Source: Streptomyces qinzhouensis
Lineage (GTDB): Bacteria; Actinomycetota; Actinomycetes; Streptomycetales; Streptomycetaceae
Direction: 5' to 3'
Assembly: GCF_007856155.1 (NCBI RefSeq)
Contig: NZ_CP042266.1
Location: 62,001-126,000, forward strand
Length of the DNA stretch: 64,000 bases
Below, one piece after another: positions 39,483 to 60,724 of the stretch (its first letter is position 1; the number at the start of each line of letters is the position of its first letter). The notes under the pieces are model-generated. The model did not search any database. It saw only the letters and a program-made list of their open reading frames with translations, and was not told where the DNA came from. A program made the translations under genes and the position numbers.

Positions 39483-39500
39483 GGGCGTACTCCCTCGGTC

Positions 39501-42876: not shown

Positions 42877-42884
42877 ACCCCTAG
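42877..42884. promoter_or_regulatory. CCCCTAGC motif between the divergent ACP and adenylation genes
   Basis: ACCCCTAG on the plus strand (CTAGGGGT on the minus strand) lies about 100 bases from the ACP start and 30 bases from the adenylation-enzyme start. It matches the CTAGGGG core found at four other intergenic sites of the middle block but lacks the full palindrome. Confidence 0.4.
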
Positions 42885-42913
42885 CCACCCCATTCTTTTC
42901 GCGGAGACGGGAA

Positions 42914-44416
42914 ATGACCGAGACACCTACGGCCGGAAACGGTCTGCACGAGCGGTTTCTGCGGGGCCTGGCGCTGTCGCCGGGCGGGACCGCGGTGTGC
43001 GTGGACGGCACCAGCGTGACCTACGAGGAACTGCACGGGCTGGCGCTGCGCCGGGCGGGGGCGCTGGCCGCCCTGGCCGGTGCGGGGCCGCAGCGGGTCG
43101 CCGTGCTGGCGGACAAGGGGGTGAGCGCGTACGCCGGGATTCTGGCGGCGCTGTACGCGGGGGCGGCGGTCGTGCCGCTGAGTCCCCGGTTCCCCGCCGG
43201 GCGGACCCGTTCCATGCTGGAGGCCGCCGGGGTGGGGGCGGTCGTCGCCGACGGGGCGGGGCGGGCCGCGCTGGCGGCGGCCGGGCTGGACCTGCCGGTG
43301 CTGGACGAGGGCGCTTCGGCGCCCGCGCTCACCGCGCCGGTGGCCGTACGGCCGTCCGATGTGGCCTATGTGCTGTTCACTTCGGGTTCGACCGGCCGCC
43401 CGAAGGGGGTGCCGGTGACCCACGGCGCCAACCTGCACTACTTCCGTCTCCTGGACGAGCGGTACGACTTCGGGCCCGGTGATGTGTTCTCCCAGTATTT
43501 CGGCCTCAACTTCGACTGTGCGATGTTCGAGCTGTTCGGTGCCTGGGGACATGGGGCGGTGCTGCAGGCCGTTCCGCCGGCGGCGCACCGGGATCTGCCG
43601 GCGTTCGTCACCGAGCGGGGGATGACGGTGTGGTTCTCCGTGCCCGGCGCCATCGCGTTCACCCGGCGGATGGGCGGTCTGGCGCCGGGGGCGATGCCGA
43701 CGCTGCGGTGGAGCCTGTTCGCCGGGGAGGCGCTGCTGTGCCCGGACGCGGCGGACTGGCAGGCCGCCGCGCCCCGGTCGAGGGTCGAGAACCTGTACGG
43801 GCCGACGGAGCTGACGATCACCGTCGCCGGGCACCGCTGGTCGCCAAAGGCCTCGGCGCGGCGGGCGGTGAACGGTGTGGTCCCGATCGGCCGGCTCCAC
43901 GCCGGTCATGAACTGCTGCTGCTGGACGGGGAGGAGGAGTCCGCGGTCGAGGGTGATCTGTGTGTTTCGGGGCCGCAGTCGACGTCCGGCTATCTCGATG
44001 CCGGGGACGACGCGGGCCGTTTCTTCGAGCGTCACGGCCGGCGCTGGTACCGGACGGGTGACCGGGTGCGGCTTCTGGACGACGGCGAGCTGGTGTATCT
44101 GGGCCGGATGGACGCCCAGGTGCAGATTCAGGGCTTCCGGGTCGAGCCGGCCGAGGTCGACCACGCGGTGCGGCAGTGCGCCGGGGTGCAGAACGCGGCC
44201 GCGGTGACCCGGCCGGCCCCGGGCGGCGGTCTGGAGCTGGTCGTCTACTACACCGGCGAGCGGGTCCCCGCGGCGGCGCTGCGCCGTGAGCTGGCGGCGC
44301 GGCTGCCGGAGGCGATCGTGCCCAAGGTGTTCCGGCATGTGGCGGAGTTTCCGCTGAACGCCAACCGCAAGATCGACCGCAGGCGGCTGGCGGCCGAGGC
44401 GGCACGGCCCGACTGA
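42914..44416 (+). CDS. Discrete adenylation enzyme (probable beta-amino acid or capping amino acid activation)
   Basis: This 500-residue stand-alone NRPS-type adenylation enzyme shows A3 F-T-S-G-S-T-G-R-P-K-G near residue 155, A4 with a conserved aspartate (L-N-F-D-C-A-M-F-E-L-F), A5 L-Y-G-P-T-E, A7 Y-R-T-G-D, A8 V-Q-I-Q-G-F-R-V-E and the catalytic lysine in N-R-K-I-D-R-R. It resembles DltA-type small amino acid ligases and the VinN/IdnL1 group. Placed divergently from the small ACP, it most likely loads the beta-amino acid, or the protecting amino acid, onto that carrier. GGAGACGGGAA precedes the ATG at 42914. Confidence 0.9.
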   Translation: MTETPTAGNGLHERFLRGLALSPGGTAVCVDGTSVTYEELHGLALRRAGALAALAGAGPQRVAVLADKGVSAYAGILAALYAGAAVVPLSPRFPAGRTRSMLEAAGVGAVVADGAGRAALAAAGLDLPVLDEGASAPALTAPVAVRPSDVAYVLFTSGSTGRPKGVPVTHGANLHYFRLLDERYDFGPGDVFSQYFGLNFDCAMFELFGAWGHGAVLQAVPPAAHRDLPAFVTERGMTVWFSVPGAIAFTRRMGGLAPGAMPTLRWSLFAGEALLCPDAADWQAAAPRSRVENLYGPTELTITVAGHRWSPKASARRAVNGVVPIGRLHAGHELLLLDGEEESAVEGDLCVSGPQSTSGYLDAGDDAGRFFERHGRRWYRTGDRVRLLDDGELVYLGRMDAQVQIQGFRVEPAEVDHAVRQCAGVQNAAAVTRPAPGGGLELVVYYTGERVPAAALRRELAARLPEAIVPKVFRHVAEFPLNANRKIDRRRLAAEAARPD

Positions 44417-48465: not shown

Positions 48466-49023
48466 TCAGACGGTGAGGGAGGTGGGGGCGGCGGGCCGTG
48501 CCGAGGCGTCGGTGTTCCCGTCGTCGTCGCGGTGGGCGCCGTACACGACCAGGGCCCACAGCAGGCAGGCGAAGGCGGCGGTGTGCAGGAGGGCGCGGAC
48601 GATGTTCCAGGCCACCCACTTGCTTTCGAAGTCGGCGCGGACGGCGTCGAGGTGGGTGGCCCGGTCGGGGTCGCCGACGTCGTCGAGCTGGATGTTCAGG
48701 GGGACGTGGACGCTGCCGGTGACGACGAGGGCGGCCAGGTAGAGGGCGAGTGCGGCGATCAGCCAGGGCAGTACGGGCCGGCCCTGTCCCCGCCAGGCCA
48801 GGAAGACGGCGAGGCCGAGGAGGGGGAGGGAGCCCACGAAGGGGAGGAGGAAGAAGGGGTTGAGGATGGCGATGTTGATGCCCTGCATGGTTTCGACGAG
48901 GGTGCGGTCGGAGGAGCGGGCCAGGCCGGGCATGACCGCGTAGGCGACGGCGGCGAACAGCCCGGCCATCAGTCCGGTGGAGAGGGTGGCGGCGAGCAGC
49001 ATGCCGGTCTGCAGGTTTCTCAT
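48466..49023 (-). CDS. DUF1772 (anthrone-oxygenase family) membrane protein
   Basis: This 185-residue protein has four hydrophobic segments (residues 5-30, 55-80, 84-105, 145-165). It shows the DUF1772 pattern: Y-A-V-M-P-G-L after the first segment, N-P-F-F-L-L-P-F in the second, and V-P-L-N followed by D-P-D-R-A in the loop between the third and fourth. AAAGGAACG precedes the ATG. The family includes cofactor-free anthrone oxygenases, but many members are uncharacterised membrane proteins. An oxidative tailoring role is possible; I have no substrate to propose. Confidence 0.82.
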   Translation of the reverse strand: MRNLQTGMLLAATLSTGLMAGLFAAVAYAVMPGLARSSDRTLVETMQGINIAILNPFFLLPFVGSLPLLGLAVFLAWRGQGRPVLPWLIAALALYLAALVVTGSVHVPLNIQLDDVGDPDRATHLDAVRADFESKWVAWNIVRALLHTAAFACLLWALVVYGAHRDDDGNTDASARPAAPTSLTV

Positions 49024-49209
49024 GCTGCGTTCCTTTCGTGCCGGACGACGGGGGCGGCGGGGGCTGCGGTGTCGTGGGCGTAGGTGGTGGGCGGGGGCGG
49101 CCGGACGGGCCGGCCGCCCTTCGAGGATGACAGCGGGGGCGGGGATGTGTACGGGATATGTGCGGAAAGCCTGGGGGTCGTGATGTTCGCCGGGGTACGG
49201 CGGGGGTGG

Positions 49210-49707
49210 TCACGCCGCCGGGCCGGTCCCGGTGCCGGTTGAGGTGTCGGTGCCGGTTGAGGTGTCGGGGCCGGTTGAGGTGTCGGGGCCGAGGAGGGCG
49301 GGATTTTTGGCCAGTTGGCGCAGGGTGGTGCGGGGGTCGGGAAGGAGGCGGCGGGTGGTCAGGTCGAGGAGTCCGATGGTGCCTTCGACCCGGGCGACGG
49401 GGAGCCCGCCGGGGGTGAGGAAGGGCTGGGTGAGTTCGATGAGTTTGCCCCGCCCCCCGCTGATGGCGCAGCCCACGTCGACCTCGTCACCGGCGCGTAG
49501 TTCGCGCTGGAAGCGGATGCCGGCTTTCAGGAGGACCGGGCCGATTCCGGCCTCGCCCAGGACGTCGGGGGTGAGGCCGGCGGCTTGCAGGAACTGCCAG
49601 CGGGCGTGTTCGGCGTATTGCAGGTAGACGGCTTGGTTGAGGTGGCCCTGTCGGTCGACTTCGTAGGCCCGGGTGCGGATGCGGACGCTGAAGGGTGAGG
49701 TCTCCAT
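49210..49707 (-). CDS. Hotdog-fold acyl-CoA/acyl-carrier thioesterase (4HBT family)
   Basis: This 165-residue protein carries the 4-hydroxybenzoyl-CoA thioesterase signature Y-E-V-D-R-Q-G-H-L-N-Q-A-V-Y near residue 15, followed by Q-Y-A-E-H-A-R-W. About 140 residues make one hotdog unit. The tail is three near-identical six-residue repeats (D-T-S-T-G-x) encoded by an 18-bp tandem repeat. It starts 17 bases after the stop of the SnoaL-like gene. Such discrete thioesterases release aromatic or polyketide acyl groups from carriers, so it could act on the carrier-bound intermediates of the operon at 53.8-60.7 kb or edit the PKS. Confidence 0.85.
   Translation of the reverse strand: METSPFSVRIRTRAYEVDRQGHLNQAVYLQYAEHARWQFLQAAGLTPDVLGEAGIGPVLLKAGIRFQRELRAGDEVDVGCAISGGRGKLIELTQPFLTPGGLPVARVEGTIGLLDLTTRRLLPDPRTTLRQLAKNPALLGPDTSTGPDTSTGTDTSTGTGTGPAA
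49231..49284. repeat. 18-bp tandem repeat, three copies, in the thioesterase 3' end
   Basis: GGTGCCGGTTGAGGTGTC occurs at 49231 and 49249, and with one changed base at 49267. It keeps the reading frame and encodes the D-T-S-T-G-x repeats at the thioesterase C-terminus. It is a minisatellite prone to length change. Confidence 0.8.
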
Positions 49708-49724
49708 GCCGGCGGCCCGGGTCT

Positions 49725-50099
49725 TCAGGCCCCGACCGGATCGTCGAAGACGATCCGCCAGGTGCCGTCCGGCTGTCTGCGGGAGACGACGGTGCCCTTG
49801 CCTTTCAGGTCGATCGGCTTGCCGGTTTCGTCGGTTCCCTTGAGGTGCCAGTCGGCGTGGGTCATGGCGAGGTCGCCGGAGCGCAGGGCGCTGGTCATGG
49901 TGATGGCGGCGGTCGTGATGGCGGCGAACATGGGCTTGAGGGCCTCGGCGACGGCCGCCAGGCCCTTCTCCTGGGCGCCGTCGGGGGGTGTGACGAGGAT
50001 GCCGTCCGGTTCGTACAGGTCGAGCATGGCCTGGGGGTCGTTGGTGTTGAAGGCCTCGGCGATGAGGCCGGGGATGTCCTGCGGGCGCTGGGCCGGCAT
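49725..50099 (-). CDS. SnoaL-like / SgcJ-type NTF2-fold protein
   Basis: This 124-residue protein is of the SnoaL/DUF4440 type: A-E-A-F-N-T-N-D-P-Q-A-M-L-D-L-Y near residue 15, D-G-I-L-V-T-P-P near 32, and a closing D-G-T-W-R-I-V-F-D-D-P near 115. This pattern is that of ketosteroid-isomerase-like proteins with a W-R-I/W-K-I end. GGAAGGAGAG precedes the ATG. It lies between the flavoprotein and thioesterase genes on the same strand and is probably co-transcribed with them. The catalytic role is unknown. Confidence 0.78.
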   Translation of the reverse strand: MPAQRPQDIPGLIAEAFNTNDPQAMLDLYEPDGILVTPPDGAQEKGLAAVAEALKPMFAAITTAAITMTSALRSGDLAMTHADWHLKGTDETGKPIDLKGKGTVVSRRQPDGTWRIVFDDPVGA

Positions 50100-50150
50100 G
50101 GCGGGTCTCTCCTTCCTGCAAAAAAAGGGGGGCGGGGGTACGGGTGCGGG

Positions 50151-51644
50151 TCAGCCGAAGATGCCCTGGCCCGGGGTGAGGATCGCGGCGGGGTCGTACC
50201 AGCGCTTGAGGGCGCTGAGGGTGATCCAGCGTGCCCCGTAGTGGGTCCGCCAGTCGGCGCGGGTCATCGAGGGCACCGCGCCGACGAGGTAGCGCTTGGC
50301 TCCGAGGGCGACGGCCCGGTCGTAGAAGCGGCGGTTCTGTGCCAGCAGGCCGGGGACGTCGGGGTGGTTGGGGGCGGGGATGCGGATGAGGCTGACTTCG
50401 AAGAACTCGTTCGTCCGGGACTGGGGCAGGACGAAGTTGGGCCGGGTGAGGGAGCGGGTGTCCATCGGGGAGATCCGGACCGGGCCGGGGCCCATCTGGG
50501 TGGGGGTGAGTTCGCCGAGGACGGTGTCGAGGTAGGCCGGGGTCTGTTCGGTGCCGACGAACATCATGAGCCAGGGCTTCTTGCTGCCCCAGAACCCGGC
50601 GGCCTTCAAAGCCGCCCAGTTGGGGTCGAAGCGCAGCAGCCAGTCGCGGAAGGGGAGGTCGGCGGCGGGGCCGGCGGTCGCCTGGGGGGAGAGTACGGCC
50701 TGCAGGGCGGCGACGTCGGGTCCGGCGGGTGCCGAGTAGAAGATGCCGAGGGCCAGCCGGTAGGTCCAGCCGCCGCCGGGCTTGGGCTCGGCGTAGCCGT
50801 TCTGGTCGCTGACGACACCGGCCCGCATGACGGCCAGGGAGTCGCGCAGGAAGGCCGCCCGGTCGGTGTAGGTGTATTCCAGGGAGCGGGTGGTGGTGTG
50901 GGCCGGGATCAGTTTGACGCCGGCGCGCACGATGACGGCGTACTGTCCGGCGCCGATGAGGACGGCTTCGAACAGTGCGCGGTGGCTGGTGCGGGAGCAG
51001 GTGATCTTCTCGCCGGTGCCGGTGACGACCTGGAGCCATTCGACGTTGTCGGCCTGGGAGCCGTGGCGCTGGCTGGTGCCGCCGAGGCCGCCGACGCTGA
51101 GGGTGCCGCCGATCGACAGATGGGCGAAGTCGTTGTAGACGGGCAGGGTCTGGCCGGTTTCGAGGGCTCGCAGGGCCAGTGCCGACCAGGTGACGCCGGC
51201 GTCGACGTCGGCGATGCCGGCCGTGATGCTGTGGATGGTGCCGAGCGGTTTGGGGTCGATGGCTATGCCGCCCTCGACCAGGGCCTGTCCGTAGTGCGAG
51301 TGGGACTCGCGGTCGTCGGCGCCGGTTCCGCTCTGGCCGTTGACGGCCACGGGGATGGCGTTGTTGCGGGCGTAGCGGAGGACTTTCTGGATGTCGTTGA
51401 CCGACCCGGGGGTCAGGACGGCCCGGGGCCGGCGGGTGAAGAGGTGGCCGAAGTCCTCGGTGAACGCCGACGGGTCGGCGGGGAGGAGGAGGGTGCCGTC
51501 GAGGGCGGGGACCTGGCGGATGCCGGGTGTCGAACCGGGGGCGGTGGCCCACGCTCGGGCGTGGGGATCCCATCCCAGGACCGCCGTACCCGCTCCGACA
51601 GCCAGCCCGGACAGGATCTTCCGGCGTGTGGGCTCGGTATGCAT
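50151..51644 (-). CDS. Tat-exported FAD oxidase, cytokinin-dehydrogenase-like (PCMH fold)
   Basis: This 497-residue protein has a twin-arginine signal (P-T-R-R-K-I-L-S-G-L-A-V-G) at residues 4-16 and then a PCMH-type FAD domain. H-S-H-Y-G-Q near residue 115 corresponds to the H-S-x-x-G-Q of cytokinin dehydrogenases, where the histidine carries covalent FAD. S-I-G-G-T-L-S-V-G-G-L-G-G and H-G-S-Q-A-D-N-V also fit that family. The end I-L-T-P-G-Q-G-I-F matches the family C-terminus. The ATG at 51644 is chosen because the Tat motif follows at once. It probably oxidises an amine or alcohol outside the cytoplasm, perhaps finishing a product. The substrate cannot be deduced. Confidence 0.85.
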   Translation of the reverse strand: MHTEPTRRKILSGLAVGAGTAVLGWDPHARAWATAPGSTPGIRQVPALDGTLLLPADPSAFTEDFGHLFTRRPRAVLTPGSVNDIQKVLRYARNNAIPVAVNGQSGTGADDRESHSHYGQALVEGGIAIDPKPLGTIHSITAGIADVDAGVTWSALALRALETGQTLPVYNDFAHLSIGGTLSVGGLGGTSQRHGSQADNVEWLQVVTGTGEKITCSRTSHRALFEAVLIGAGQYAVIVRAGVKLIPAHTTTRSLEYTYTDRAAFLRDSLAVMRAGVVSDQNGYAEPKPGGGWTYRLALGIFYSAPAGPDVAALQAVLSPQATAGPAADLPFRDWLLRFDPNWAALKAAGFWGSKKPWLMMFVGTEQTPAYLDTVLGELTPTQMGPGPVRISPMDTRSLTRPNFVLPQSRTNEFFEVSLIRIPAPNHPDVPGLLAQNRRFYDRAVALGAKRYLVGAVPSMTRADWRTHYGARWITLSALKRWYDPAAILTPGQGIFG

Positions 51645-51857
51645 GTGCCTTTGGTACGCCCGCGGGTGCAAGAAAAGCGCAAACCCGCCCCGCCCCGGGG
51701 GCCCCGGGGGCGGGCAGGTGCCATGACCCCCGGGGCGGGGGTGGTGGGGTGGTGGGGTGGTGGGGTGCCGCCGCCCCCGGGCCGCGGACTGTGCCCCGGG
51801 GGCGGCGGTGTTCCCTTGGTACCGGCCGACCGGCCGACTCGGCGGGGGTGGGGGTGT

Positions 51858-52799
51858 TCAGTGTGTCAGGGCGCCGGTGCGGTGCTCCTGGGGGCTGATG
51901 CCGTAGACCCGTTTGAAGGCCGAGCTGAGGGCGAATCCGCTGCCGTAGCCGACTTGGCGGGCGACGGTGTTCAAGGTGGCGTCGGACTGGCGCAGCAGGT
52001 CCGCGGCCAGGGCCAGGCGCCATTCGGTCAGGTAGGTCATCGCCGGTGTGCCGACCGCGCTGCGGAAGCTGCCGGCGAGGGTGGCCCGGGATACGCCGAT
52101 CTCGGCGGCGACCCGTTCCAGGGTCCAGTCGTTCGCCGGGTCTTCGTGGAACAGGCGCAGGGCCTCGCCCGCCACCGGGTGGGTCTGGGCCCGGTACCAG
52201 GCGGGGGCTTCGGTGTCGGGCCGGTCGAACCATTCCCGCAGGACCGAGATGAGGAGCAGGTCGAGGAGGCGGTCCAGGACGACGCCCTGGGCGGGGCCCT
52301 GTTTGGTGATCTCACCGGCGAGTACCGGGATGAGGGTGGAGTCCCAGGTGTCGTCGGAGACGACCAGCAGCGGGGGCAGTACGTCGAGCAGGCGCTGGCC
52401 GACGGCGCCGACCTCCTCGTACACGCCGAGGAGCATCTGTACCGGCCCGTCGGGGTTGCTGCCCCAGGTGCGTACGCCCAGGGCCATCCGTTCGCGCAGT
52501 TCGACGCCTTCGGGGGTGAGGCACTGCTGGCCGGGGTGGACGATGACCTGCGGCGGGGTCGCGGGCTGGTCGCTCATGACGTAGGGGTCGGGGCCGCGGA
52601 CGATGGCGACGTCGCCGGGGTGGAGCCGTACCGGGTCGCCGTGGTCGGGTTCGACGTAGGCGTCGCCGCTGAGCATGACGGCGAGGCATAGGGGTGATCC
52701 GTCCTGGACCCGGATGGACCAGGGGGGATCGAGCACGATACGGAGGAGGAAAGCGCCGCTGGCCCGCGGCCCCTCGAGTAATCCTGCGAGTGCGTCCAT
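51858..52799 (-). CDS. AraC-family transcriptional regulator with cupin-like sensor, TTA-containing
   Basis: This 313-residue protein has an N-terminal cupin-type half of the AraC-binding kind (residues 15-190, with L-H-P-G-D-V-A-I-V). The C-terminal AraC domain has two helix-turn-helices: L-E-R-V-A-A-E-I-G-V-S-R-A-T-L near 225, and V-A-R-Q-V-G-Y-G-S-G-F-A near 275. Codon 7 is TTA (52781-52779), so it needs the bldA tRNA. It diverges from an NmrA-like gene across 82 bases, which should hold the operator. AraC proteins of this layout often control the divergent oxidoreductase; control of the downstream minus-strand flavoprotein is also possible. Confidence 0.92.
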   Translation of the reverse strand: MDALAGLLEGPRASGAFLLRIVLDPPWSIRVQDGSPLCLAVMLSGDAYVEPDHGDPVRLHPGDVAIVRGPDPYVMSDQPATPPQVIVHPGQQCLTPEGVELRERMALGVRTWGSNPDGPVQMLLGVYEEVGAVGQRLLDVLPPLLVVSDDTWDSTLIPVLAGEITKQGPAQGVVLDRLLDLLLISVLREWFDRPDTEAPAWYRAQTHPVAGEALRLFHEDPANDWTLERVAAEIGVSRATLAGSFRSAVGTPAMTYLTEWRLALAADLLRQSDATLNTVARQVGYGSGFALSSAFKRVYGISPQEHRTGALTH

Positions 52800-52881
52800 C
52801 CACCAAAGCTTAGACGACGGGACATGCATCCCGGCATCTCGACCATGGACCGTCCAGATCCGTTCCCTTCAGACTGCTGGC

Positions 52882-53721
52882 ATGACGACAAACGAGCACA
52901 CGACACTGGTTCTCGGCGGTACCGGCCGGGTCGGCCGCCGCGTGGTGAAGGGCCTGACCGCCCGGGGCGTGAACGTCCGGGTCGGCTCCCGTACCGGCAC
53001 GCCCCCGTTCGACTGGGAGGACCCCTCGACCTGGGCCGGCGCTTTCGTCGGCGTCCGGTCGGCGTATCTGATGTACTACCCCGAGGTCGAGTGGCCCGGT
53101 GCGGGCGACGCGATCGGCGCGGTGGCCAAGCTGGCCGTCGACGCGGGCGTTCGGCGGCTGGTTCTGCTCTCCGCCCGTAACCAGGAAGAGGCGGTGCGGT
53201 GCGAGGAGGCCGTGACCGGTCTCCCGGTCGAGTGGACCATCGTCGCCCCGGCGTCGTTCAACCAGAACTTCGACGAGGGGGTGTTCCTCGAGCCGCTGCG
53301 CCAGGGTGTGCTGGCGCTGCCGGCCGGCAACAACTCCGACCCGTTCGTCGACGCCGACGACATCGCGGACGTCGCGGTGGCGGCTTTGACCGAGGACGGG
53401 CATGTGGGTGAGCGGTACGAGCTGACGGGCCCTCGGCTGTGGACGTTCGCCGAAGGCGTCGAGGAGATCGCCCGGGCGACGGGCCGTTCCCTGCGCTACG
53501 AGCCGATCACCCGGGACCAGTTCGCCGCCGCCATCGTCGAGGACGGTGCCCCGCGTGATTTCGCCGAGCCGCTGGCCACGCTCATCTCCGAGTTCTTCGA
53601 CGGCCGCAACAGTTCGCTGGCGGACGGGGTGGAGCGGGCGCTGAAGCGCAAGCCCCGGGACTTCGCGGACTGGGTGGCCGAGATCGCCCCCACCGGGGTG
53701 TGGGACGCCGCCGGCGAGTGA
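52882..53721 (+). CDS. NmrA-like NAD(P)-binding protein
   Basis: This 279-residue Rossmann-fold protein of the atypical SDR/NmrA group has V-L-G-G-T-G-R-V-G-R-R-V near residue 10, V-R-V-G-S-R near 32, L-L-S-A-R-N near 95 in place of the classical tyrosine-lysine pair, and A-P-A-S-F-N-Q-N-F near 128. It is divergent from the AraC gene. Such proteins are either NAD(P)-sensing regulators or quinone/flavin-linked reductases. The missing Y-x-x-x-K suggests it is not a standard dehydrogenase. Confidence 0.88.
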   Translation: MTTNEHTTLVLGGTGRVGRRVVKGLTARGVNVRVGSRTGTPPFDWEDPSTWAGAFVGVRSAYLMYYPEVEWPGAGDAIGAVAKLAVDAGVRRLVLLSARNQEEAVRCEEAVTGLPVEWTIVAPASFNQNFDEGVFLEPLRQGVLALPAGNNSDPFVDADDIADVAVAALTEDGHVGERYELTGPRLWTFAEGVEEIARATGRSLRYEPITRDQFAAAIVEDGAPRDFAEPLATLISEFFDGRNSSLADGVERALKRKPRDFADWVAEIAPTGVWDAAGE

Positions 53722-53784: not shown

Positions 53785-53807
53785 ATCCCCCGCACGATGC
53801 GGGGGAT
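53785..53807 (+). promoter_or_regulatory. Hairpin over the start codon of the adenylation enzyme
   Basis: ATCCCCCGCA (53785-53794) is perfectly complementary to TGCGGGGGAT (53798-53807) with only three bases between. The first ATG (53797) sits in the loop and the second ATG (53806) in the 3' arm. In mRNA this would bury both possible starts and the GGGGG next to them, so it may limit or regulate translation of the operon's first gene. Confidence 0.5.
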
Positions 53808-55356
53808 GAAACTCACCCAGCTCTGGACCTCGTTCGCCCGGCAGGCCGATGCCCGCCCCGGCGCCACGGCTCTCGTGGCGGGCAGCCGGCACGTCTCCTA
53901 CGGCGAGCTCGCCGGCCTGGTGGCCGACGCGTCGGTGCGCCTTGACCGGCTCGACACCGCCGGCGGCGAACCGGTCGGCGTACCCGCCACCAAGACGCCC
54001 GAGACGATCGCCCTGGTGCTGGCCCTCCTGCGGGCGGGCCTGCCGGTGGTGCTCCCCTCGGCCACGCTGCCCGGCGCCACCCTGCAACGCCTCCTGGCCC
54101 GGGCCGGGTGCCGTCACCTCGTCCCCGCCGACGATGCCGGCCCCGCCCGGGCCGGCGCCGTACCCGCCCCGGCCCCGGCCCCGGCTCCGGCTCCGGCTCC
54201 GGCCGCGCCGCATGCCCCCGGCTCCGTCGCCTTCGTCCTGACCACCTCCGGGTCGACGGGCGTGCCGAAACTGGTGCCGCTCACCGCGGGCGCCGTCGAG
54301 CGCTTCGCCGACTGGGCGGCGGCACGGTTCGAGCTGGGACCCGGGGCTGCGGTCCTCAACTACGCCCCGCTCAACTTCGATCTCTGCTTCCTCGACGTCT
54401 GGGCCACCCTCCACCACGGCGGCCGGGTCGTCCTGGTCGATCCGGCCGCCGCCACCGACGGGCGCCGGCTGCTCGATACGATCGACGACAACGCCGTCAC
54501 CGTCGTGCAGGCCGTGCCGATGGCCCACCAGCTGCTGGCCGACGCCGCGGACGGTACGGGCCGCCGGCTCACCTCGGTCCGCCACACCCTGTTCACCGGC
54601 GACCATATGCCCGCCCGCTGCCTGGCCCGGCTGCCCGAGGTGCTCCCCCACAGCCGCCTCTACAACCTCTACGGCTGCACCGAGACCAACGACAGCTTCC
54701 TGTACGAGGTGGACCCGGGCGCGCTGCCGGGCGGGCCGGTCCCGCTCGGCACCCCGCTGCCCGGTGTCGAGGCGGTCGTCCTCGGTGAGGACGGCGGTGT
54801 GGTCACCGGGCCCGGACGGGGCGAGCTGATCGTGGCCACACCGTTCCAGTCGGCCGGCTACCTCGGCGCCGACCCGGCGGCGGACGGCCCGTTCACCGGC
54901 GCTCCCGCCGGTCTCCCGGCCGGGTCCCCGGGCCGCTTCTACCGCACCGGCGACATCGTGCGCCGCGACCAGGACGGTGTCCTCCACCTCGAGGGGCGCA
55001 ACGACTTCCAGGTCAAAGTCCGCGGGACCCGGGTGAACACCGCGGCCGTCGAACAGGTGCTCCTCGACCACGACGATGTCACCGAGGCCGCGGTCCTCGC
55101 CGTCCCCGACCCCGTCGCCGGTCATCTGCTGCACGCGGTGGTGCGGCGGGGGCCGGGAGCCGTCACGGGAACCCTCGGCCTGCGCCGCCACTGCGCCCTG
55201 TATCTGCCCACGGCGGCCATCCCCGCCGTCTTCCGCCTGTCCGAGGCCCCCTTGCCCCGAACGTCCACCGGCAAGGTCGACCGCCAGAGCCTCGGCGAAA
55301 CCCTCAGGTCCCCTCGCCCCGAGGCGAGGGCTGTCAGAAAGGAACCGGCACGATGA
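53797..55356 (+). CDS. Discrete adenylation enzyme (RedM/PltF-like, possibly proline-specific)
   Basis: Activates an amino acid as its adenylate and loads the carrier protein encoded next. The 519-residue enzyme has A3 T-T-S-G-S-T-G-V-P-K near residue 155, A4 L-N-F-D-L-C-F-L-D, A5 N-L-Y-G-C-T-E-T-N-D-S-F, A7 Y-R-T-G-D and the catalytic lysine T-G-K-V-D-R. Read by eye, the first specificity positions are Asp-Leu-Leu, as in stand-alone proline enzymes of pyrrole biosynthesis; later positions are less clear, so proline is a hypothesis. A Pro/Ala repeat lies near residue 130. Starts at 53797 and 53806 are both within a hairpin. The carrier gene overlaps its stop by four bases. Confidence 0.88.
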   Translation: MRGMKLTQLWTSFARQADARPGATALVAGSRHVSYGELAGLVADASVRLDRLDTAGGEPVGVPATKTPETIALVLALLRAGLPVVLPSATLPGATLQRLLARAGCRHLVPADDAGPARAGAVPAPAPAPAPAPAPAAPHAPGSVAFVLTTSGSTGVPKLVPLTAGAVERFADWAAARFELGPGAAVLNYAPLNFDLCFLDVWATLHHGGRVVLVDPAAATDGRRLLDTIDDNAVTVVQAVPMAHQLLADAADGTGRRLTSVRHTLFTGDHMPARCLARLPEVLPHSRLYNLYGCTETNDSFLYEVDPGALPGGPVPLGTPLPGVEAVVLGEDGGVVTGPGRGELIVATPFQSAGYLGADPAADGPFTGAPAGLPAGSPGRFYRTGDIVRRDQDGVLHLEGRNDFQVKVRGTRVNTAAVEQVLLDHDDVTEAAVLAVPDPVAGHLLHAVVRRGPGAVTGTLGLRRHCALYLPTAAIPAVFRLSEAPLPRTSTGKVDRQSLGETLRSPRPEARAVRKEPAR

Positions 55357-55649
55357 ACACCGAAACGATGAACACCGAAACGTTGAACCACGAGACCCTC
55401 ATCAAGAACTTCCTGATCGAGGAGTTCCTGCCCGATGTGGCCGCCTCCGAGCTCGCGGACGACTACGACCTGCTCACCAACGGGGTCGTCGACAGTCTCG
55501 GGCTGCTCAAGCTCATCGCCTGGGTCGAAACCGAGTTCGGTGTCACCGTCGACGACGCGGCCCTGGACCCGGACAACTTCCGCACCGTCCGGGCCATCGA
55601 CGGCTTCGTAGCACGGGCGTCGGCCCCGGCCGCGGTCACGGCGAGCTGA
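55353..55649 (+). CDS. Discrete peptidyl carrier protein (RedO/PltL-like)
   Basis: A 98-residue carrier protein with the phosphopantetheine serine in G-V-V-D-S-L-G-L-L-K-L-I near residue 48. The opening M-N-T-E-T-M-N-T-E-T-L-N is a repeated hexamer tail, so the true start may be a later methionine. The ATG overlaps the stop of the adenylation gene (ATGA). The fold, with a long helix starting L-I-K-N-F-L-I-E-E-F, resembles the carriers on which prolyl groups are oxidised to pyrrole-2-carboxyl. It would tether the substrate for the dehydrogenase at 58132-59301. Confidence 0.9.
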   Translation: MNTETMNTETLNHETLIKNFLIEEFLPDVAASELADDYDLLTNGVVDSLGLLKLIAWVETEFGVTVDDAALDPDNFRTVRAIDGFVARASAPAAVTAS

Positions 55650-55652
55650 CCC

Positions 55653-56765
55653 GTGCACGACGCATCCGCCGCCCTGCGGGCCGGCCGGCCGGTCTCCACC
55701 GCGACGTGGTCGTCGTTCTGGGACGAACTGAGCGCCGGCACCCTGGCCCCCGGCGAGCCGGCATCGCTGATGGGGGCGCTCGACCCCGGCACGGTCGCCC
55801 CCGCAACGTTCACCAGCCTGGTGCGGTCGCTGCGCGAGCGCCGCACCGGGCCGGTGCCCCCCTTTCCCGGGGCGGTCAACGTGGTGGGCACCGGCGGCGG
55901 CATACCGACGTTCAACATCTCCACCGCCGCCGCCTTCACCGCCGCCGCGCTCGGCACACGTATCGTGAAAACCGGATCACGGGCCCACTCCAGCCGGTAC
56001 GGCTCGATCGACCTGCTGGACCGGCTCGGAATCACGCTCACCAAGTCCTACGGCGAGACCGCGGCGGCGCTGGACCGGCACCGCATCGCCTTCGCCGGCT
56101 ACTTCGTGTATCCGGTCGAGCTGACCGTGCTGGCCCGGCGCATCCTGCCGCTGCCGATGCGGACCTTCGGCCGGGTCCTCAACCTGCTGGGCCCCTTCCT
56201 CCCGGTGCTGCCGGGAACCCGTCAGCTCACGGGCCTGCCGGGCCCGGCGCTCCTGCCCCTGGCCCGCTGCCTGGCGGCGGCGGTGGAGGACCGTGAAGTG
56301 TGGCTGTCCACCAACGACATCGGGGCCGACGAACTCGTCGGCTTCGCGGACAACACCCTCCACCGCGCTGCCGGCGCCCCGCCGATCCGGCTGGGCCCCC
56401 GCGTGCTGGGCCTGGCCGCCGGGACCCCGCGGGACCTGGCACCGGTGACCGACCCGGCCCGGGTCGTCGAGCACTTCCTGAGCGTCGTGTCCGGGCGGGC
56501 CGGTGAGGTCGCCACCCAGACCGTCGCCCTCAACGCCGCCGCCCTGGTGATCGCCGCCGGGCAGCGGACCCCGTGGCGCTCGGCCGTGGCCTCGGCGGTG
56601 GCGGCGATGCGGGACGGCGCGGTACGCGACCTGGTCCACGCCGCGGGAACCACCACCACCACCGGCACCAGCACCAGCACCAGCGTCACCACCGGCATCA
56701 CCGCCGGGACTGCCGCCGGGACGGTCGGGACGGTCGGCGCCGGTGAGCGGGAGGGAGTTCGATGA
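55653..56765 (+). CDS. trpD: Anthranilate phosphoribosyltransferase-like protein (TrpD paralogue)
   Basis: The 370-residue protein follows TrpD through its length. It has G-T-G-G-G-I-P-T-F-N-I-S-T near residue 78 (PRPP loop; normally G-T-G-G-D), K-T-G-S-R-A-H-S-S near 106 (normally K-H-G-N-R-A-V-S-S), G-S-I-D-L-L-D-R-L-G, L-L-G-P-F-L near 185 and G-A-D-E-L-V-G (metal-binding D-E) near 227. The K-H-G-N change removes residues that contact anthranilate, so a different acceptor or changed activity is likely. The last 45 residues are a Thr/Gly repeat absent from TrpD. The GTG at 55653 follows the carrier gene by 3 bases; the stop overlaps the TrpA-like gene. TrpE is absent. Confidence 0.85.
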   Translation: MHDASAALRAGRPVSTATWSSFWDELSAGTLAPGEPASLMGALDPGTVAPATFTSLVRSLRERRTGPVPPFPGAVNVVGTGGGIPTFNISTAAAFTAAALGTRIVKTGSRAHSSRYGSIDLLDRLGITLTKSYGETAAALDRHRIAFAGYFVYPVELTVLARRILPLPMRTFGRVLNLLGPFLPVLPGTRQLTGLPGPALLPLARCLAAAVEDREVWLSTNDIGADELVGFADNTLHRAAGAPPIRLGPRVLGLAAGTPRDLAPVTDPARVVEHFLSVVSGRAGEVATQTVALNAAALVIAAGQRTPWRSAVASAVAAMRDGAVRDLVHAAGTTTTTGTSTSTSVTTGITAGTAAGTVGTVGAGEREGVR

Positions 56766-57568
56766 GCGGCTTCTTCCCCCGCCCGCCGGGCCTGGCCGTG
56801 TTCCTCAACGCCGGTGACCCGCCGTTCGACGTACTCGACGACATCGCCGACATGCTCGACGAACAGGAGGTCGACGTCCTGGAGCTGGGGGTGCCGTTCC
56901 CCGACTCCATCAGCGACGGGCCGGTGATCCGCCGCTCCGCCGACCGGGCCCTGGCGGCCGGAACCGGACTGGAGGACACCCTCGCCTTCGCCGCCCGCTC
57001 CCGCGGCCGGCACCGCCGGCTGCGGGTGGTCGTCCTGGCCGACTGGGCCCACACCGTACGCCCCCGTTCGACGGCACAGGTCGTCACGGCCGTCGCCGGA
57101 TCCGGGGCGGCCGGGATCCTCCTGCACGGCGCACCGCCCCGGGTCCGCCCGGAGTTCTACGACCTGGCCGGCGCCGCCGGGCTGCCCGTCGTCACCACCT
57201 GCTACGCGTCCTCGCCTCCCGCGGCCGTGGCCGAGGCAGGGGCCCACGCCTCGGCCTATGTGTATCTGGTGGCGCACTACGGCCGCAGCGGCGCCGGCCC
57301 GGCACCCGACCCGGCGGCTCTCCGGGCCCCCGTCCATGCCCTGCGGGCCCTGACCGGTGTACCGGTCGCCGCCGGTTTCGGGGTACGCACGGCGGCCGAT
57401 GTGGAGCGGGTGCACGCGGCCGGTGCGGATGCCGCCGTGATCGGCAGCGCCGTCGTCGCCCGGGCCGAGGCGTCCATGGCAAGCGGCGGTGACATCACCG
57501 CCGACCTCGCCGACCTGGTCACCGCCCTGCGCCCGCCGCGGCCTGTGCCCGTGGCGCGGCCCCGGTAA
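56762..57568 (+). CDS. trpA: Tryptophan synthase alpha-like protein (TrpA paralogue, no TrpB)
   Basis: This 268-residue TIM-barrel protein keeps both catalytic acids of TrpA: Glu in E-L-G-V-P-F-P-D near residue 43 and Asp in S-D-G-P-V-I near 54. G-F-G-V-R-T-A-A-D-V and V-I-G-S-A-V-V near the end bind the phosphate. The loop Y-G-R-S-G-A differs from the usual S-G-V-T-G-A. TrpA cleaves indole-3-glycerol phosphate to indole and glyceraldehyde phosphate, normally inside a complex with TrpB. With no trpB here it may act alone, like plant indole-releasing homologues, or on an analogue. The ATGA overlap with the TrpD-like gene shows coupling. 177 bases of repeat-rich DNA follow. Confidence 0.88.
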   Translation: MSGFFPRPPGLAVFLNAGDPPFDVLDDIADMLDEQEVDVLELGVPFPDSISDGPVIRRSADRALAAGTGLEDTLAFAARSRGRHRRLRVVVLADWAHTVRPRSTAQVVTAVAGSGAAGILLHGAPPRVRPEFYDLAGAAGLPVVTTCYASSPPAAVAEAGAHASAYVYLVAHYGRSGAGPAPDPAALRAPVHALRALTGVPVAAGFGVRTAADVERVHAAGADAAVIGSAVVARAEASMASGGDITADLADLVTALRPPRPVPVARPR

Positions 57569-57636
57569 CCGCCCCCCGGGGGCCCGGTCACCCCACCGGA
57601 CCCCACCACACTCCACCCCCGGCACTGGGGCCCCCC

Positions 57637-57662
57637 GCTGGGCCCCACTGCTGGGCCCCACT
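57637..57662. repeat. Two tandem 13-bp repeats upstream of the cupin gene
   Basis: GCTGGGCCCCACT occurs twice in tandem at 57637-57662 within a GC-rich, palindrome-prone stretch (about 57625-57690) in the only real gap of this operon. It may be an internal terminator or processing site; GAGAGGAGCG just before 57746 is the ribosome site of the next gene. Confidence 0.5.
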
Positions 57663-57745
57663 GCGGGGCCTCACCGCTGGGCCCTGCCACTCCCCCGGTC
57701 CCTTGGGACCGCATTTTTCCCCACCATCCCGAGAGGAGCGATCAC

Positions 57746-58120
57746 ATGATCGTGCGAAGCCTGGACAGCGTCACCACCGTCGACTGGGGCAACGGCCTCA
57801 GCCGCCGCTTCCTGCTGGAGGCCGACGGCCTCGGCTACTCGGTCACCGACACCACGGTGCGGGCCGGTACGAAGTCGCTCCTGGAGTACCGCCGCCATCT
57901 GGAGGCCTGCTACTGCATCGAGGGCTCCGGCGAGGTCGTCGCCCTGGACGGTACGACGCACCGCATCACCCCGGGCACGCTCTACGCCCTCGACCAGCAC
58001 GACGCCCACTACCTGATCGCCGACCCGGATACCGATCTGCGTCTGGTGTGCGTGTTCTCGCCCGCGCTGCGGGGCAACGAGCGGCACAGCCTCGACGCCG
58101 CCCACTGCTCCGCCTACTGA
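57746..58120 (+). CDS. ectC: Ectoine synthase-like cupin (EctC paralogue)
   Basis: This 124-residue protein is very like ectoine synthase: M-I-V-R-S-L-D at the start, S-R-R-F-L-L-E-A-D-G-L-G-Y-S near residue 20, D-T-T-V-R-A-G, H-L-E-A-C-Y-C-I-E-G-S-G-E-V near 50 (metal-binding Glu/Tyr region), P-G-T-L-Y-A-L-D-Q-H-D-A-H-Y near 75 and C-V-F-S-P-A-L. EctC closes a ring by dehydrating N-acetyl-diaminobutyrate; it can also cyclise glutamine to a pyrroline carboxylate. No ectA, ectB or ectD is present, so osmolyte synthesis is unlikely. A cyclodehydration in the operon's own pathway is more plausible. Confidence 0.88.
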   Translation: MIVRSLDSVTTVDWGNGLSRRFLLEADGLGYSVTDTTVRAGTKSLLEYRRHLEACYCIEGSGEVVALDGTTHRITPGTLYALDQHDAHYLIADPDTDLRLVCVFSPALRGNERHSLDAAHCSAY

Positions 58121-58131
58121 GGGCCACGGCC

Positions 58132-59301
58132 ATGCGTACCTGGACCGAGGAACAGCTCGCACTGCGCGACGGCATGGAGCAGTGGTGCCGCGATCTGGAC
58201 ACCACCGCCGGCGCGCCCGACACCCCCGACGCCCCTGGCGCCCCTGGCACCGATGAACAGGGGTTTCCGCACCACGCGTGGAAGCTGGTCCGCTCGTCGG
58301 GCATCACGGGCCTGCCGTTCGATCCCGCCCGGGGCGGGGCGGGTGCCTCTCTGCTCACCACCATGTTCGTCCTGGAGGCTCTGGGCCGGGGGTGCCGCGA
58401 CGGGGGGTTGAGTTTCTCCGTCGCCACCACCCTGTGCAGCACCGGGGTCCCGCTCGAGCACTTCGGGACCGAGGAGCTGAAAGACCGGTATCTGACCCGG
58501 ATGTGCTCGGGCGATCTGATCGGCGCCCACGCCATCAGTGAGCCCGACACCGGGTCGGACGCCCTGAGCATGCGTACCGGTGCGGTCCGCGACGGCGACA
58601 CTTATGTCCTCAACGGCAGCAAGAGCTTCGTCACCAACGGGCCGATCGCCGATGTGGTCGTCGTCTACGCCCGTACCCGGCCCGCCGGGGGGCCGCTCGG
58701 GATCACCGCCTTCCTGGTCGACACCGACACCCCCGGCTTCTCGTCCGGCCGCCCGGTCAAGAAGATGGGTCTTTCGTCCTCGCCCATGAGCGAGTTGTAC
58801 TTCGACGACTGCCGAGTGCCCGCCGACCGGGTCATCGGCGGGATCGGGCGGGGCTATCTGCTCCTGGAACACGTCATGAAATGGGAGATCCTCTGCTCCT
58901 TCATCATCAACGTCGGGGAGATGCAGCACCGGTTCGAACGCTGCCTGGAATACGCCCGCACCCGCACCCAGTTCGGCCGGCCGATCGGCTCGTACCAGGC
59001 GATCTCCCACAAGCTGGTCGACATGCGGATCCGTCTGGACACCGCCCGCCGCTGGCTCTACGACACCGGTGAGCGCCTGGCCGCCGGTGAGGACGTCACC
59101 ATGGACGTGGCCATCGGCAAGCTGCTGACCAGTGAGGCGAATGTGGCCTCGGGGCTGGCGGCGATCCAGATCTTCGGCGGCAACGGCTACATGTCGGAGT
59201 ACGGCCTGGACCGCGAGCTGGCCAACGCGGTGGGCAGCACCCTCTACTCGGGCACGACGGAGATCCAGTACAACCGGATCTCCTCGCTGCTGGGGTTGTG
59301 A
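58132..59301 (+). CDS. Acyl-CoA-dehydrogenase-like flavoprotein (RedW/PltE-like, probable carrier-bound prolyl oxidase)
   Basis: This 389-residue flavoprotein has the acyl-CoA dehydrogenase layout: A-I-S-E-P-D-T-G-S-D near residue 135 (FAD-binding), a middle sheet with L-N-G-S-K-S-F-V-T-N-G, and a C-terminal helical domain with R-T-Q-F-G-R-P, Q-I-F-G-G-N-G-Y near 350 and S-G-T-T-E-I-Q at the end. Together with a discrete adenylation enzyme and carrier it matches the trio that oxidises prolyl-carrier to pyrrole-2-carboxyl-carrier. An Ala/Pro/Asp-rich insert near residue 25 is unusual. The stop overlaps the GTG of the TrpF-like gene. Confidence 0.88.
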   Translation: MRTWTEEQLALRDGMEQWCRDLDTTAGAPDTPDAPGAPGTDEQGFPHHAWKLVRSSGITGLPFDPARGGAGASLLTTMFVLEALGRGCRDGGLSFSVATTLCSTGVPLEHFGTEELKDRYLTRMCSGDLIGAHAISEPDTGSDALSMRTGAVRDGDTYVLNGSKSFVTNGPIADVVVVYARTRPAGGPLGITAFLVDTDTPGFSSGRPVKKMGLSSSPMSELYFDDCRVPADRVIGGIGRGYLLLEHVMKWEILCSFIINVGEMQHRFERCLEYARTRTQFGRPIGSYQAISHKLVDMRIRLDTARRWLYDTGERLAAGEDVTMDVAIGKLLTSEANVASGLAAIQIFGGNGYMSEYGLDRELANAVGSTLYSGTTEIQYNRISSLLGL

Positions 59302-60008
59302 CCGTGCTGCTCAAGGTGTGCGGCGCCACCAGCCGCCGGGACATCGCCCTGCTGGGGGCCGCGGGAGCCGACCTGATCGGCCTGTGGCACGGGATACCCG
59401 GCGGGCCGGCCGATCTGACCACCGGCCGGCTCACCGCACTCGCCACGGCATGCCGCACTCCGGGGCCGGCCGCGGCCCGGCCGGCCCCGGAGCCGGTGCT
59501 GGTCACCTTCCTCCACCATCCGGCCGCCGTGCTGGATGCCGCCCGCACCGCCGGCGTGCGGTGGCTGCAGCTCCACGGCTACCAGCCGCCGGCCGTGGTC
59601 GCGGCACTCAAACGGGGCTGGCCCGAGGTCACCGTCGTCAAAGTCCTCCATGTCACCGGTGACACCTGTGCCGAGCGACCGCTGCTGGCCTCCTACGAGC
59701 GGGCGGGCACCGATGTGTTCCTGTTCGACGCCACGAGCGCCGAGGGGCGGATCGGGAGCACCGGGGTGTCCCTGGATCCCGGGGTGGTGCTGGATCTGGC
59801 CGAGGCGACGACGCGGCCGTTCCTCCTGGCCGGGGGGATCTCGGCCGCCGGCCGCCCCGCCTACGAGGAGGTGGCCGCCCATCCGCGTTTCTCCGGTGTC
59901 GACGTCGACACGGCGGCACGGGACGCGGCGGGCGGGTTCTGCGCCGGCCGGGTCGCCGCGATCCGCCGCACGTGGCGTGCCGTGCCCGAGGTGGAGGAGG
60001 TCGCCTGA
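59298..60008 (+). CDS. trpF: Phosphoribosylanthranilate isomerase-like protein (TrpF paralogue)
   Basis: The 236-residue TIM-barrel protein has the TrpF general base cysteine in L-K-V-C-G-A-T near residue 8, the W-L-Q-L-H-G-Y strand near 92, the catalytic aspartate in F-L-F-D-A-T near 142 and L-A-G-G-I-S near 175. The usual V-D-V-S-S-G-V-E phosphate loop reads V-D-V-D-T-A-A-R, so phosphate or ring binding is altered. TrpF performs the Amadori rearrangement of N-(phosphoribosyl)anthranilate. GTGA overlap with the preceding gene and TGATG overlap with the next place it firmly in the operon. Confidence 0.87.
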   Translation: MTVLLKVCGATSRRDIALLGAAGADLIGLWHGIPGGPADLTTGRLTALATACRTPGPAAARPAPEPVLVTFLHHPAAVLDAARTAGVRWLQLHGYQPPAVVAALKRGWPEVTVVKVLHVTGDTCAERPLLASYERAGTDVFLFDATSAEGRIGSTGVSLDPGVVLDLAEATTRPFLLAGGISAAGRPAYEEVAAHPRFSGVDVDTAARDAAGGFCAGRVAAIRRTWRAVPEVEEVA

Positions 60009-60724
60009 TGGGCTCGGTGTTCATCGACGCGCTGCTGGGCGCCGACCGGCCGGTCATCATGGAGCTCAAGCCCCGGTCGGCACAGGGCGAGGACCTGTTC
60101 CGCGGCCGGTCACCGGCCGAGATCGTGGCCCGCTACGAGGCCGCCGGCGCGCCCTGTCTCTCCGTCGTCACCGGCCGCTGGTTCGGGGGCGACACCGCGC
60201 TGCTGGCGGAGGTGGTGCGGCGTACCGGGCTGCCTGTTCTGCAGAAGGATTTCCTCACCAACTCCGGCCAGTTGCGGGCCGCGAGGGGGCTGGGGGCGTC
60301 TGCGGTGCTGCTGACGGCGGCGGTGCTGCCGAAGGCGGCGCTGGCGCGGCTGGCGCGGGAGGCGCTGCGGCTCGGTCTCACGCCTTTCATCGAGGTGGCT
60401 TCGGTGGCCGAGGTGGAGGCGCTGCCGTCGTGCGAGGGGTGTGTGGTGGCCGTCAACAACCGGGATATCCGCAATCGTGAGCGCGGGGACGCCGATACCG
60501 GCCGCAGTGGCCGGCTGCTGCCTGCGGTGCGGCGTACGGGGACCGGCTGCCCGGTCAGTGCCAGTGGTATCGACGATCCGCGGGTCGCGGCCGGGCTGCT
60601 CAGCGCCGGCTATGGCGGACTGCTGGTCGGGACGCACCTGTTGCGGGCAGAGGGCCTCGAGTCGTGGTGCGAGGAAGTGGACCGGCTGCGTGGCGTGCTG
60701 CCCGGGCCCGGTCGAGGGGGCTGA
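60008..60724 (+). CDS. trpC: Indole-3-glycerol-phosphate synthase-like protein (TrpC paralogue)
   Basis: The 238-residue TIM-barrel protein keeps most catalytic residues of indole-3-glycerol phosphate synthase: Glu and Lys in I-M-E-L-K-P near residue 19, the general acid lysine in L-Q-K-D-F near 80, Glu in F-I-E-V near 130 and Asn/Arg in N-N-R-D-I near 152. The K-x-x-S-P-S motif reads K-P-R-S-A-Q, and the late E-S-G-I is A-S-G-I, losing one conserved glutamate. The normal reaction closes the indole ring with loss of CO2. GGAGGAGG precedes the ATG at 60008. Its last 125 bases overlap the convergent regulator gene. Confidence 0.87.
   Translation: MGSVFIDALLGADRPVIMELKPRSAQGEDLFRGRSPAEIVARYEAAGAPCLSVVTGRWFGGDTALLAEVVRRTGLPVLQKDFLTNSGQLRAARGLGASAVLLTAAVLPKAALARLAREALRLGLTPFIEVASVAEVEALPSCEGCVVAVNNRDIRNRERGDADTGRSGRLLPAVRRTGTGCPVSASGIDDPRVAAGLLSAGYGGLLVGTHLLRAEGLESWCEEVDRLRGVLPGPGRGG

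Follow-up and report, generated by a model that had tools for sequence, protein, structure and literature searches.

Several described systems resemble parts of an eight-gene cassette located at positions 53797-60724 of a 64,000-nucleotide stretch of Streptomyces qinzhouensis DNA (hereafter the window), which covers bases 62001-126000 of a genome assembled as one contig of 8.15 Mb. The pyrrole-forming trio of prodigiosin and undecylprodigiosin biosynthesis, whose genes we take to be PigI/PigG/PigA and RedM/RedO/RedW, is matched by a free-standing adenylation (A) enzyme, a peptidyl carrier protein (PCP) and a PigA/RedW-type dehydrogenase with its catalytic Glu, all encoded together in the cassette. 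However, the cassette A pocket is non-prolyl, the dehydrogenase scores under the PigA and RedW equivalog cut-offs, and an EctC-like cupin and four trp-type enzymes are interleaved with the trio. The TrpD-TrpF-TrpC-TrpA pathway is matched in all four families, in most catalytic residues and, in 7 of 80 related loci, by a TrpB-like gene, but the cassette shows no TrpE/G, has replacements at the TrpD acceptor site and at TrpC Glu210, and interleaves carrier chemistry. The cupin scores above the NCBIfam subfamily cut-off for ectoine synthase EctC and keeps the iron ligands and most substrate residues, but carries Thr for Asn38 and an insertion after Trp21, and has no EctA/EctB neighbours among the scanned genes. 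The TrpA-like enzyme would act without TrpB, as does maize BX1, a lyase of the TrpA type that releases indole; the BX1 structure 1tjr is third among the solved relatives of the TrpA-like protein, but BX1 differs in using true indole-3-glycerol phosphate. No paper describing the eight-gene set or its chemistry appeared among the matches listed from the open-licence literature, mostly titles and the starts of abstracts, in agreement with the first-pass annotation, which knew of no pathway described with this gene content. We know of no product for the cassette.

We read the cassette as a carrier-borne imitation of the tryptophan pathway, in which a glutamine-derived aminopyrrole replaces anthranilate, with a probability of about 0.5. 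Its genes are the following.

53797-55356, + strand, free-standing A enzyme (Pfam AMP-binding, 194.5 bits; NCBIfam; PDB relatives)
55353-55649, + strand, PCP (Pfam PP-binding, 25.6 bits)
55653-56765, + strand, TrpD-like phosphoribosyltransferase with an altered anthranilate site (Pfam Glycos_transf_3, 107 bits; NCBIfam)
56762-57568, + strand, TrpA-like lyase (Pfam Trp_syntA, 137.4 bits; NCBIfam)
57746-58120, + strand, EctC-like (ectoine-synthase-like) cupin (Pfam Ectoine_synth, 128.3 bits; NCBIfam)
58132-59301, + strand, PigA/RedW-type acyl-PCP dehydrogenase, acyl-CoA-dehydrogenase-like (Pfam Acyl-CoA_dh_1, 111.9 bits; NCBIfam)
59298-60008, + strand, TrpF-like Amadori isomerase (Pfam PRAI, 31.8 bits; NCBIfam)
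60008-60724, + strand, TrpC-like ring-closing enzyme (Pfam IGPS, 127.6 bits; NCBIfam)

The list of open reading frames and the Pfam and NCBIfam matches confirmed the first-pass annotation in gene number, order and families, and each of the eight proteins exceeds its Pfam cut-off. The tight packing described there holds, with the exception of a 177 bp gap between trpA and ectC. Comparisons with the NCBIfam models showed that the equivalog cut-offs are missed by TrpD (125.4 vs. 199.05), TrpF (51.8 vs. 216), TrpC (124.7 vs. 284) and the dehydrogenase (PigA, 376.3 vs. 500; RedW, 367 vs. 650), whereas TrpA (119.8 vs. 102.35) and the EctC subfamily (140.9 vs. 128) pass theirs. TrpE and TrpB are missing from the Pfam-scanned window genes, which represent part of the window open reading frames; their absence, also claimed at first, thus stands for these genes but not for the family, since seven related loci carry a TrpB-like gene inside the cassette. 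No ectA or ectB partner was found among the Pfam-scanned window genes around the cassette, the only part of the genome examined for these two genes.

The cassette is conserved far beyond its host. A search of 392 genomes of the genus with the TrpD-like protein (E <= 1e-30) found relatives in 21, the own genome counted. Twenty-two loci were taken from 19 of the 20 other genomes (G050 was left out, its contig being too short), and 15 of them hold all eight genes in identical order. One of the rest runs to its contig end (L042), and six lack one to five genes in the fetched stretch (L032, L033, L034, L043, L044 and L051). The first-pass annotation had proposed searching genomes for the eight-gene set. 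In a wider sample, which overlaps the genus sample, an alignment of ten TrpD-like proteins was run against 84,980 species genomes; 84 relatives were obtained and 80 kept, with the complete set in 66/80 loci, identical order in 50/80 and a TrpC-like gene in 76/80. Five further loci of the 80 are cut by contig ends (L105, L111, L135, L139 and L140). The hosts include Streptomyces, Micromonospora, Kibdelosporangium, Lentzea, Actinokineospora, Nocardiopsis, Arthrobacter and Rhodococcus rhodnii, and 11 loci are proteobacterial (L108, L139, L143, L144 and L167-L173), with rearranged orders and eight complete sets. The distance matrices of the eight proteins over the 66 complete loci correlate with r = 0.74-0.96, to which shared species history contributes. 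The conserved set and the correlated matrices, across two phyla, support one pathway rather than two neighbours, as first suggested, and it is well supported that the eight genes form one conserved unit.

Genomes of six incomplete loci (L118, L146, L151, L152, L159 and L164; L121, L167 and L171 were left out) were searched with the EctC- and TrpA-like proteins. Elsewhere in the genome, L151 and L164 have a cassette-type TrpA, and L146 and L159 a cassette-type EctC. In the L118 genome, a TrpA for which one stop codon is reported lies beside another EctC; both probably belong to the second cassette of that genome, L113.

The pocket of the window A enzyme reads D-L-L-Q-L-T-L-D-S-K. Most cassette A pockets read D-L-L-Q-x-T-x-D-S and five remote proteobacterial ones DLLHLAIDT. 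In one sample of 21 A domains, 19 share D-L/V-L-Q-x-T-x-D-S-K and the other two (L032 and L033) have lost a readable code. Alignment of 74 cassette A domains showed the prolyl Tyr278 in none (Gln in 69, His in 5), Asp in place of V330 in all 74, and Ser (67) or Thr (7) in place of C331. The solved L-prolyl ligase 6o6e has Y, A, V and C at the corresponding places, and seven of ten control A domains encoded beside other RedW-type dehydrogenases read DLLYLALVCK, DLFYLALVCK or DLFYVAWVCK; by this code and the same residues in 6o6e, the seven are taken as prolyl ligases. The remaining controls read DLFFVCLVCK in one case (L082) and unrelated codes in two (both L083), and three loci over the RedW cut-off (L073-L075) have no A-domain match in the fetched stretch. 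A "glutamine code" considered for the A domain was rejected as a misalignment on the evidence of the 6o6e alignment and the controls. By its aligned residues, the cassette pocket is a proline-like one with an added acid and polar groups, and the enzyme probably activates glutamine or 5-amino-3,4-dihydro-2H-pyrrole-2-carboxylate (ADPC), a proline-shaped cyclic amidine, which would suit this pocket. The phosphopantetheine Ser of the PCP is kept in 80/80 aligned sequences.

These pockets argue against proline as the loaded unit, which the first-pass annotation had assumed, and bear on a pathway in which proline would become pyrrole-2-carboxyl-S-PCP, an indole or analogue would form separately from host anthranilate, and the two would be joined later. 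The dehydrogenase is indeed nearest to PigA and RedW among the NCBIfam models (376 and 367 bits), prolyl-PCP dehydrogenases of known structure rank high among its PDB matches, and prolyl ligases are among the relatives of the A enzyme, with 6o6e seventh in the PDB matches and fifth for the pocket fragment. However, the prolyl code occurs in 0/74 cassette A domains, the conserved EctC-like cupin would be left without a role, the TrpD anthranilate residues are replaced in 81/81 sequences, and TrpD, TrpF and TrpC score under their equivalog cut-offs. We consider this pathway quite unlikely.

The EctC-like cupin supports a cyclic amidine as the starter. Its iron ligands (Glu57, Tyr84 and His92) and W21, S23, R25, T40, Y52 and F106 are kept in 77/77 sequences. 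The counterpart of Asn38, which contacts the carboxylate in ectoine synthase, is Thr in 74, Cys in 2 and Ala in 1, and is the sole change among the iron ligands and the substrate and product contacts listed in the available part of the source (PMC6344544). A three-residue insertion follows Trp21. The cyclo-condensation chemistry should therefore persist, with a changed carboxylate recognition. According to the same partial source, Halomonas elongata EctC forms ADPC from glutamine as a side reaction (PMC6344544). We propose from the sequence comparisons that the cupin cyclises glutamine, free or carrier-bound, to ADPC. The dehydrogenase, with a Glu that we take to be catalytic in 75/75 sequences, is proposed to oxidise carrier-bound ADPC to the 5-aminopyrrole-2-carboxyl group.

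In the TrpD-like protein, His136 is replaced by Thr or Ser, Asn138 by Ser and GTGGD by GTGGG, in 81/81 sequences. The canonical TrpD encoded elsewhere in the genome retains all three, which we take to be anthranilate-site residues. The non-standard acceptor of the first-pass annotation is supported. The TrpC-like protein keeps Glu51, Lys53, Lys110 and Glu159 (Ss numbering) in 77/77 and Asn180 in 75/77, with Glu210 replaced by Ala in 76/77, including the window. The TrpF-like Cys and Asp are kept in 75/75 and the TrpA-like Glu49 and Asp60 in 73/73; we take these to be catalytic residues, and we infer that the TrpA-like lyase releases glyceraldehyde 3-phosphate by retro-aldol cleavage. The altered substrate loops claimed for the trp paralogues were thus found in TrpD and TrpC, while TrpF and TrpA are invariant at their catalytic residues. 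These intact residues would suit trp paralogues that are decaying or recruited and merely raise the supply of tryptophan to a nearby cluster, but the cassette has no visible TrpE, its genes are tightly co-conserved across two phyla, the TrpD site is consistently non-anthranilate, and the primary trpC and trpD genes lie elsewhere in the genome, making a supply function very improbable. The PRAI family has only two matches in the genome, the TrpF-like cassette copy in each of two chromosome arms; such scarcity is expected in an actinomycete using PriA.

A smaller set occurs in L085 and L086, two loci located by way of the dehydrogenase family; it is composed of an A enzyme with the same code, a PCP, an EctC-like cupin, the dehydrogenase and a transglutaminase-like gene. 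Neither locus has trpD, trpF, trpC or trpA in the available stretch, and their genomes (G003 and G008) have no TrpD-like match at E <= 1e-30. This minimal set indicates that a module for the carrier-bound unit is separable from a trp module acting on that unit, and suggests that the product of the first module is what the trp enzymes use, the pyrrole itself being the acceptor. An ortho-amino aromatic acid as acceptor, and the joining of a pyrrole to an indole made separately, both put forward at first, become less likely. The nearest literature mention of a cassette-like set is the unassigned "ectoine-like 1" cluster of Pseudomonas Ps663, which resembles the minimal loci in its AMP ligase, hypothetical protein, dehydrogenase and ectoine synthase, but has no trp genes named in the available part of the source and is likened by description, not sequence (PMC8719888).

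Other loci carry additional genes. A TrpB-like gene is present in 7/80 loci (L119, L145, L146, L152, L158, L159 and L160), with 605 bits to the TrpB-like model for the Lentzea locus L145; the TrpB-like gene of L085 is 67% identical to the latter. UbiD, confirmed with a genuine UbiD query, occurs in all seven and in 18/80 loci overall. The combination of TrpB-like and UbiD in these relatives points to a tryptophan isostere. In 34/80 loci, the cassette is flanked by a BioF/Kbl-type oxoamine synthase and a FabF-like ketosynthase, often with MaoC and ketosynthase III (KSIII). The transglutaminase-like gene occurs in 0/34 of these and in 25/46 of the others, with neither in 21, in counts uncorrected for relatedness. 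On the simplest reading, loci of the first class hand the carrier-bound acyl group over to chain-building enzymes, and those of the transglutaminase class release it.

From the gene set, its conservation, the residue changes and the minimal and extended versions, which are observed, the following substrates, products and order of steps are derived. The EctC-like cupin would cyclise glutamine, free or as glutaminyl-S-PCP, to ADPC, and the A enzyme would charge the PCP with ADPC (or glutamine). The dehydrogenase would take two electrons, giving 5-aminopyrrole-2-carboxyl-S-PCP. The TrpD-like enzyme would move phosphoribose from phosphoribosyl pyrophosphate onto the 5-amino group, and the TrpF-like enzyme would form the Amadori ketone. 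The TrpC-like enzyme would close the ring at the unsubstituted adjacent carbon C4, with loss of water and retention of CO2, and the TrpA-like enzyme would free glyceraldehyde 3-phosphate to leave pyrrolo[2,3-b]pyrrole-carboxyl-S-PCP, an indole isostere. A fused heterocycle, one of the product types first suggested, counts as supported. In many loci, the bicycle-S-PCP would then pass to fatty-acid/polyketide-type enzymes; in some, the bicycle would be freed, decarboxylated by UbiD and coupled to serine by the TrpB-like enzyme. More tentatively, and with some doubt, the loci may represent a parallel tryptophan-type pathway in at least two phyla, with a glutamine-derived starter and a pyrrolo[2,3-b]pyrrole, leading in some actinomycetes to a tryptophan-isostere amino acid, C9H11N3O2.

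Every gene function would fit a six-membered starter equally well, in which a homoglutamine-like acid gives 6-aminopicolinyl-S-PCP and then 7-azaindole, with 7-azatryptophan in the TrpB-like loci. The natural product of ectoine synthase, a six-membered cyclic amidine, also counts for this route. However, the first residues of the A pocket match those of prolyl ligases, which hold a five-membered ring, and glutamine is a common metabolite with a recorded cyclisation. The dehydrogenase would also have to remove four electrons instead of two, a weak objection, as prolyl-PCP dehydrogenases do remove four. We regard the six-membered route as improbable.

Several observations weigh against the aminopyrrole pathway. 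To our knowledge, no natural product contains this pyrrolo[2,3-b]pyrrole bicycle. Locus L152 has TrpD, TrpA, TrpF, TrpC and a TrpB-like gene in a genome without a cassette-type EctC (best match 42%), and L146 and L159 have TrpD, TrpF, TrpC and a TrpB-like gene in genomes without a cassette-type TrpA (canonical-like at 32% only). The minimal locus L086 is a 7.8-kb contig, beyond which trp genes could lie. Non-ribosomal peptide synthetase A domains rank first among the PDB relatives of the A enzyme, before the prolyl ligase, and the best PDB match of the dehydrogenase is 6cxt, named butyryl-CoA dehydrogenase (285 bits), with prolyl-PCP dehydrogenases next below (281.5 bits). The counterpart of TrpD Arg193 is unplaceable owing to a three-residue insertion, with Lys (45/81) or Arg (36/81) nearby. 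In the available part of the source, ADPC formation from glutamine is described for a single ectoine synthase, and only as a side reaction (PMC6344544). In Mycobacterium tuberculosis indole-3-glycerol phosphate synthase (IGPS), Glu219Ala (Glu210 in Ss numbering) is reported in part of the source to be without detectable activity, Glu219Gln being ten times more active (PMC10591298); the Glu210 to Ala replacement thus suggests that the TrpC-like enzyme works differently or poorly. The TrpC-like Arg182 counterpart remains Arg in the window protein and is Lys in 69/77, one or the other being present in 77/77. As this residue touches the substrate carboxylate in IGPS, according to the part of the source available (PMC7681013), the carboxylate site may persist in the TrpC-like enzyme. 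In favour of the pathway, the same source shows that IGPS can close the ring without the substrate carboxylate, at a rate ~1000-fold slower (PMC7681013).

The conserved Arg or Lys would favour trp enzymes that act on a released, free ortho-amino heteroaryl acid, with CO2 lost at TrpC and the carrier serving the oxidation only; the transglutaminase-like gene of 25/80 loci could release such an acid. However, the 34/80 loci with the oxoamine synthase and ketosynthase have no transglutaminase-like gene in the available stretch and would need the carboxyl as a thioester, and no cassette enzyme obviously installs the ortho amino group. We consider the free-acid route unlikely and retain the carrier-borne aminopyrrole pathway.

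Several further observations were made on the related loci. Two genomes hold two seemingly complementary cassettes each (L032 and L044 in G174, L033 and L043 in G129): L032 and L033 have a ruined adenylation pocket and TrpC, without TrpA and TrpF, and L044 and L043 have a normal pocket with TrpA and TrpF and no TrpC in the fetched stretch. In three records of the Streptomyces clavuligerus megaplasmid, a partial TrpD-like match covers 61% of the query at a place where no gene is listed, and is possibly a remnant. On a Streptomyces xanthii plasmid, the cassette genes are annotated singly (AMP-binding protein, hypothetical protein, tryptophan synthase alpha, ectoine synthase and others) with no system name. 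A type 2 lanthipeptide synthetase, LanM, adjoins the TrpB-like/UbiD cassette in L119 (4892-7981) and L152, as assigned by NCBIfam and, for L152, by clustering. Several proteobacterial loci contain ketosynthase, MMPL, LolA-like, amine-oxidase and hotdog proteins, a neighbourhood that to us resembles aryl-polyene clusters. The remote proteobacterial cassettes L167 and L169-L173 sit with a ketosynthase, and four of the six with MMPL export-type genes. The host names Fertoeibacter niger and Gemmobacter caeruleus hint at dark or blue colonies, and a pigment product is possible for these cassettes.

A second cassette copy with identical proteins is present at the opposite end of the chromosome, and the chromosome arms are identical up to ~132,197 of the contig, within the stretch compared. 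The cassette thus sits in a terminal inverted repeat, whereas the primary IGPS and TrpD genes are located elsewhere in the genome. The closest relatives are L094, L095 and L096, with protein identities of 71-89% across the cassette. The flanking genes are the following.

48466-49023, - strand, DUF1772/anthrone-oxygenase-like protein, in an upstream flank common to L094
49725-50099, - strand, SnoaL-like protein, in the flank common to L094
50151-51671, - strand, FAD oxidase, in the flank common to L094
51858-52829, - strand, AraC regulator, in the flank common to L094, and in L095 too
52675-53721, + strand, NmrA-like short-chain dehydrogenase/reductase, start codon uncertain, just upstream of the cassette and conserved in L094 and L095
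60600-63656, - strand, STAND/BTAD (AfsR-like) regulator, also beside the cassette in the three closest relatives

The last 125 bp of the TrpC-like gene (60600-60724) also belong to the regulator gene on the opposite strand. The NmrA-like reductase is a probable tailoring enzyme, and the flank at 48466-52829 possibly holds further tailoring and regulatory genes. Just past the window, at 129.4-133.0 kb of the contig, genes for a KSIII, a FabG-like reductase and an acyltransferase make a fatty-acid-type partner plausible for the window cassette. A two-module type I polyketide synthase (PKS) ending in a reductase-like domain occupies 28845-44416 of the window with two AMP ligases and a VinK-like acyltransferase. 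This block was considered as a partner of the cassette, but the VinK-like query was only weakly matched (22-44 bits at best) in four of six genomes, those of L094, L095, L096, L098, L105 and L036. The PKS block is therefore treated as a neighbour and is probably a separate cluster. A mevalonate block in the same repeat arm, at 6862-13492 of the window (GHMP kinases, diphosphomevalonate decarboxylase, and HMG-CoA reductase and synthase), suggests a terpenoid cluster.

If the aminopyrrole pathway is correct, the tryptophan toolkit of phosphoribosyl transfer, Amadori shift, ring closure, retro-aldol cleavage and serine coupling would be a general device that fuses a pyrrole onto an aminated heteroarene, and it would run on carrier-bound substrates without CO2 loss. 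It would supply a natural case of non-decarboxylating ring closure, which, in the available part of the source, has been a weak promiscuous activity of IGPS (PMC7681013), and a second job for ectoine-synthase-like cupins. A widespread class of gene clusters, present in 21 of 392 sampled genomes of one genus, would be opened, and enzymes for making indole isosteres and a tryptophan analogue would be at hand.

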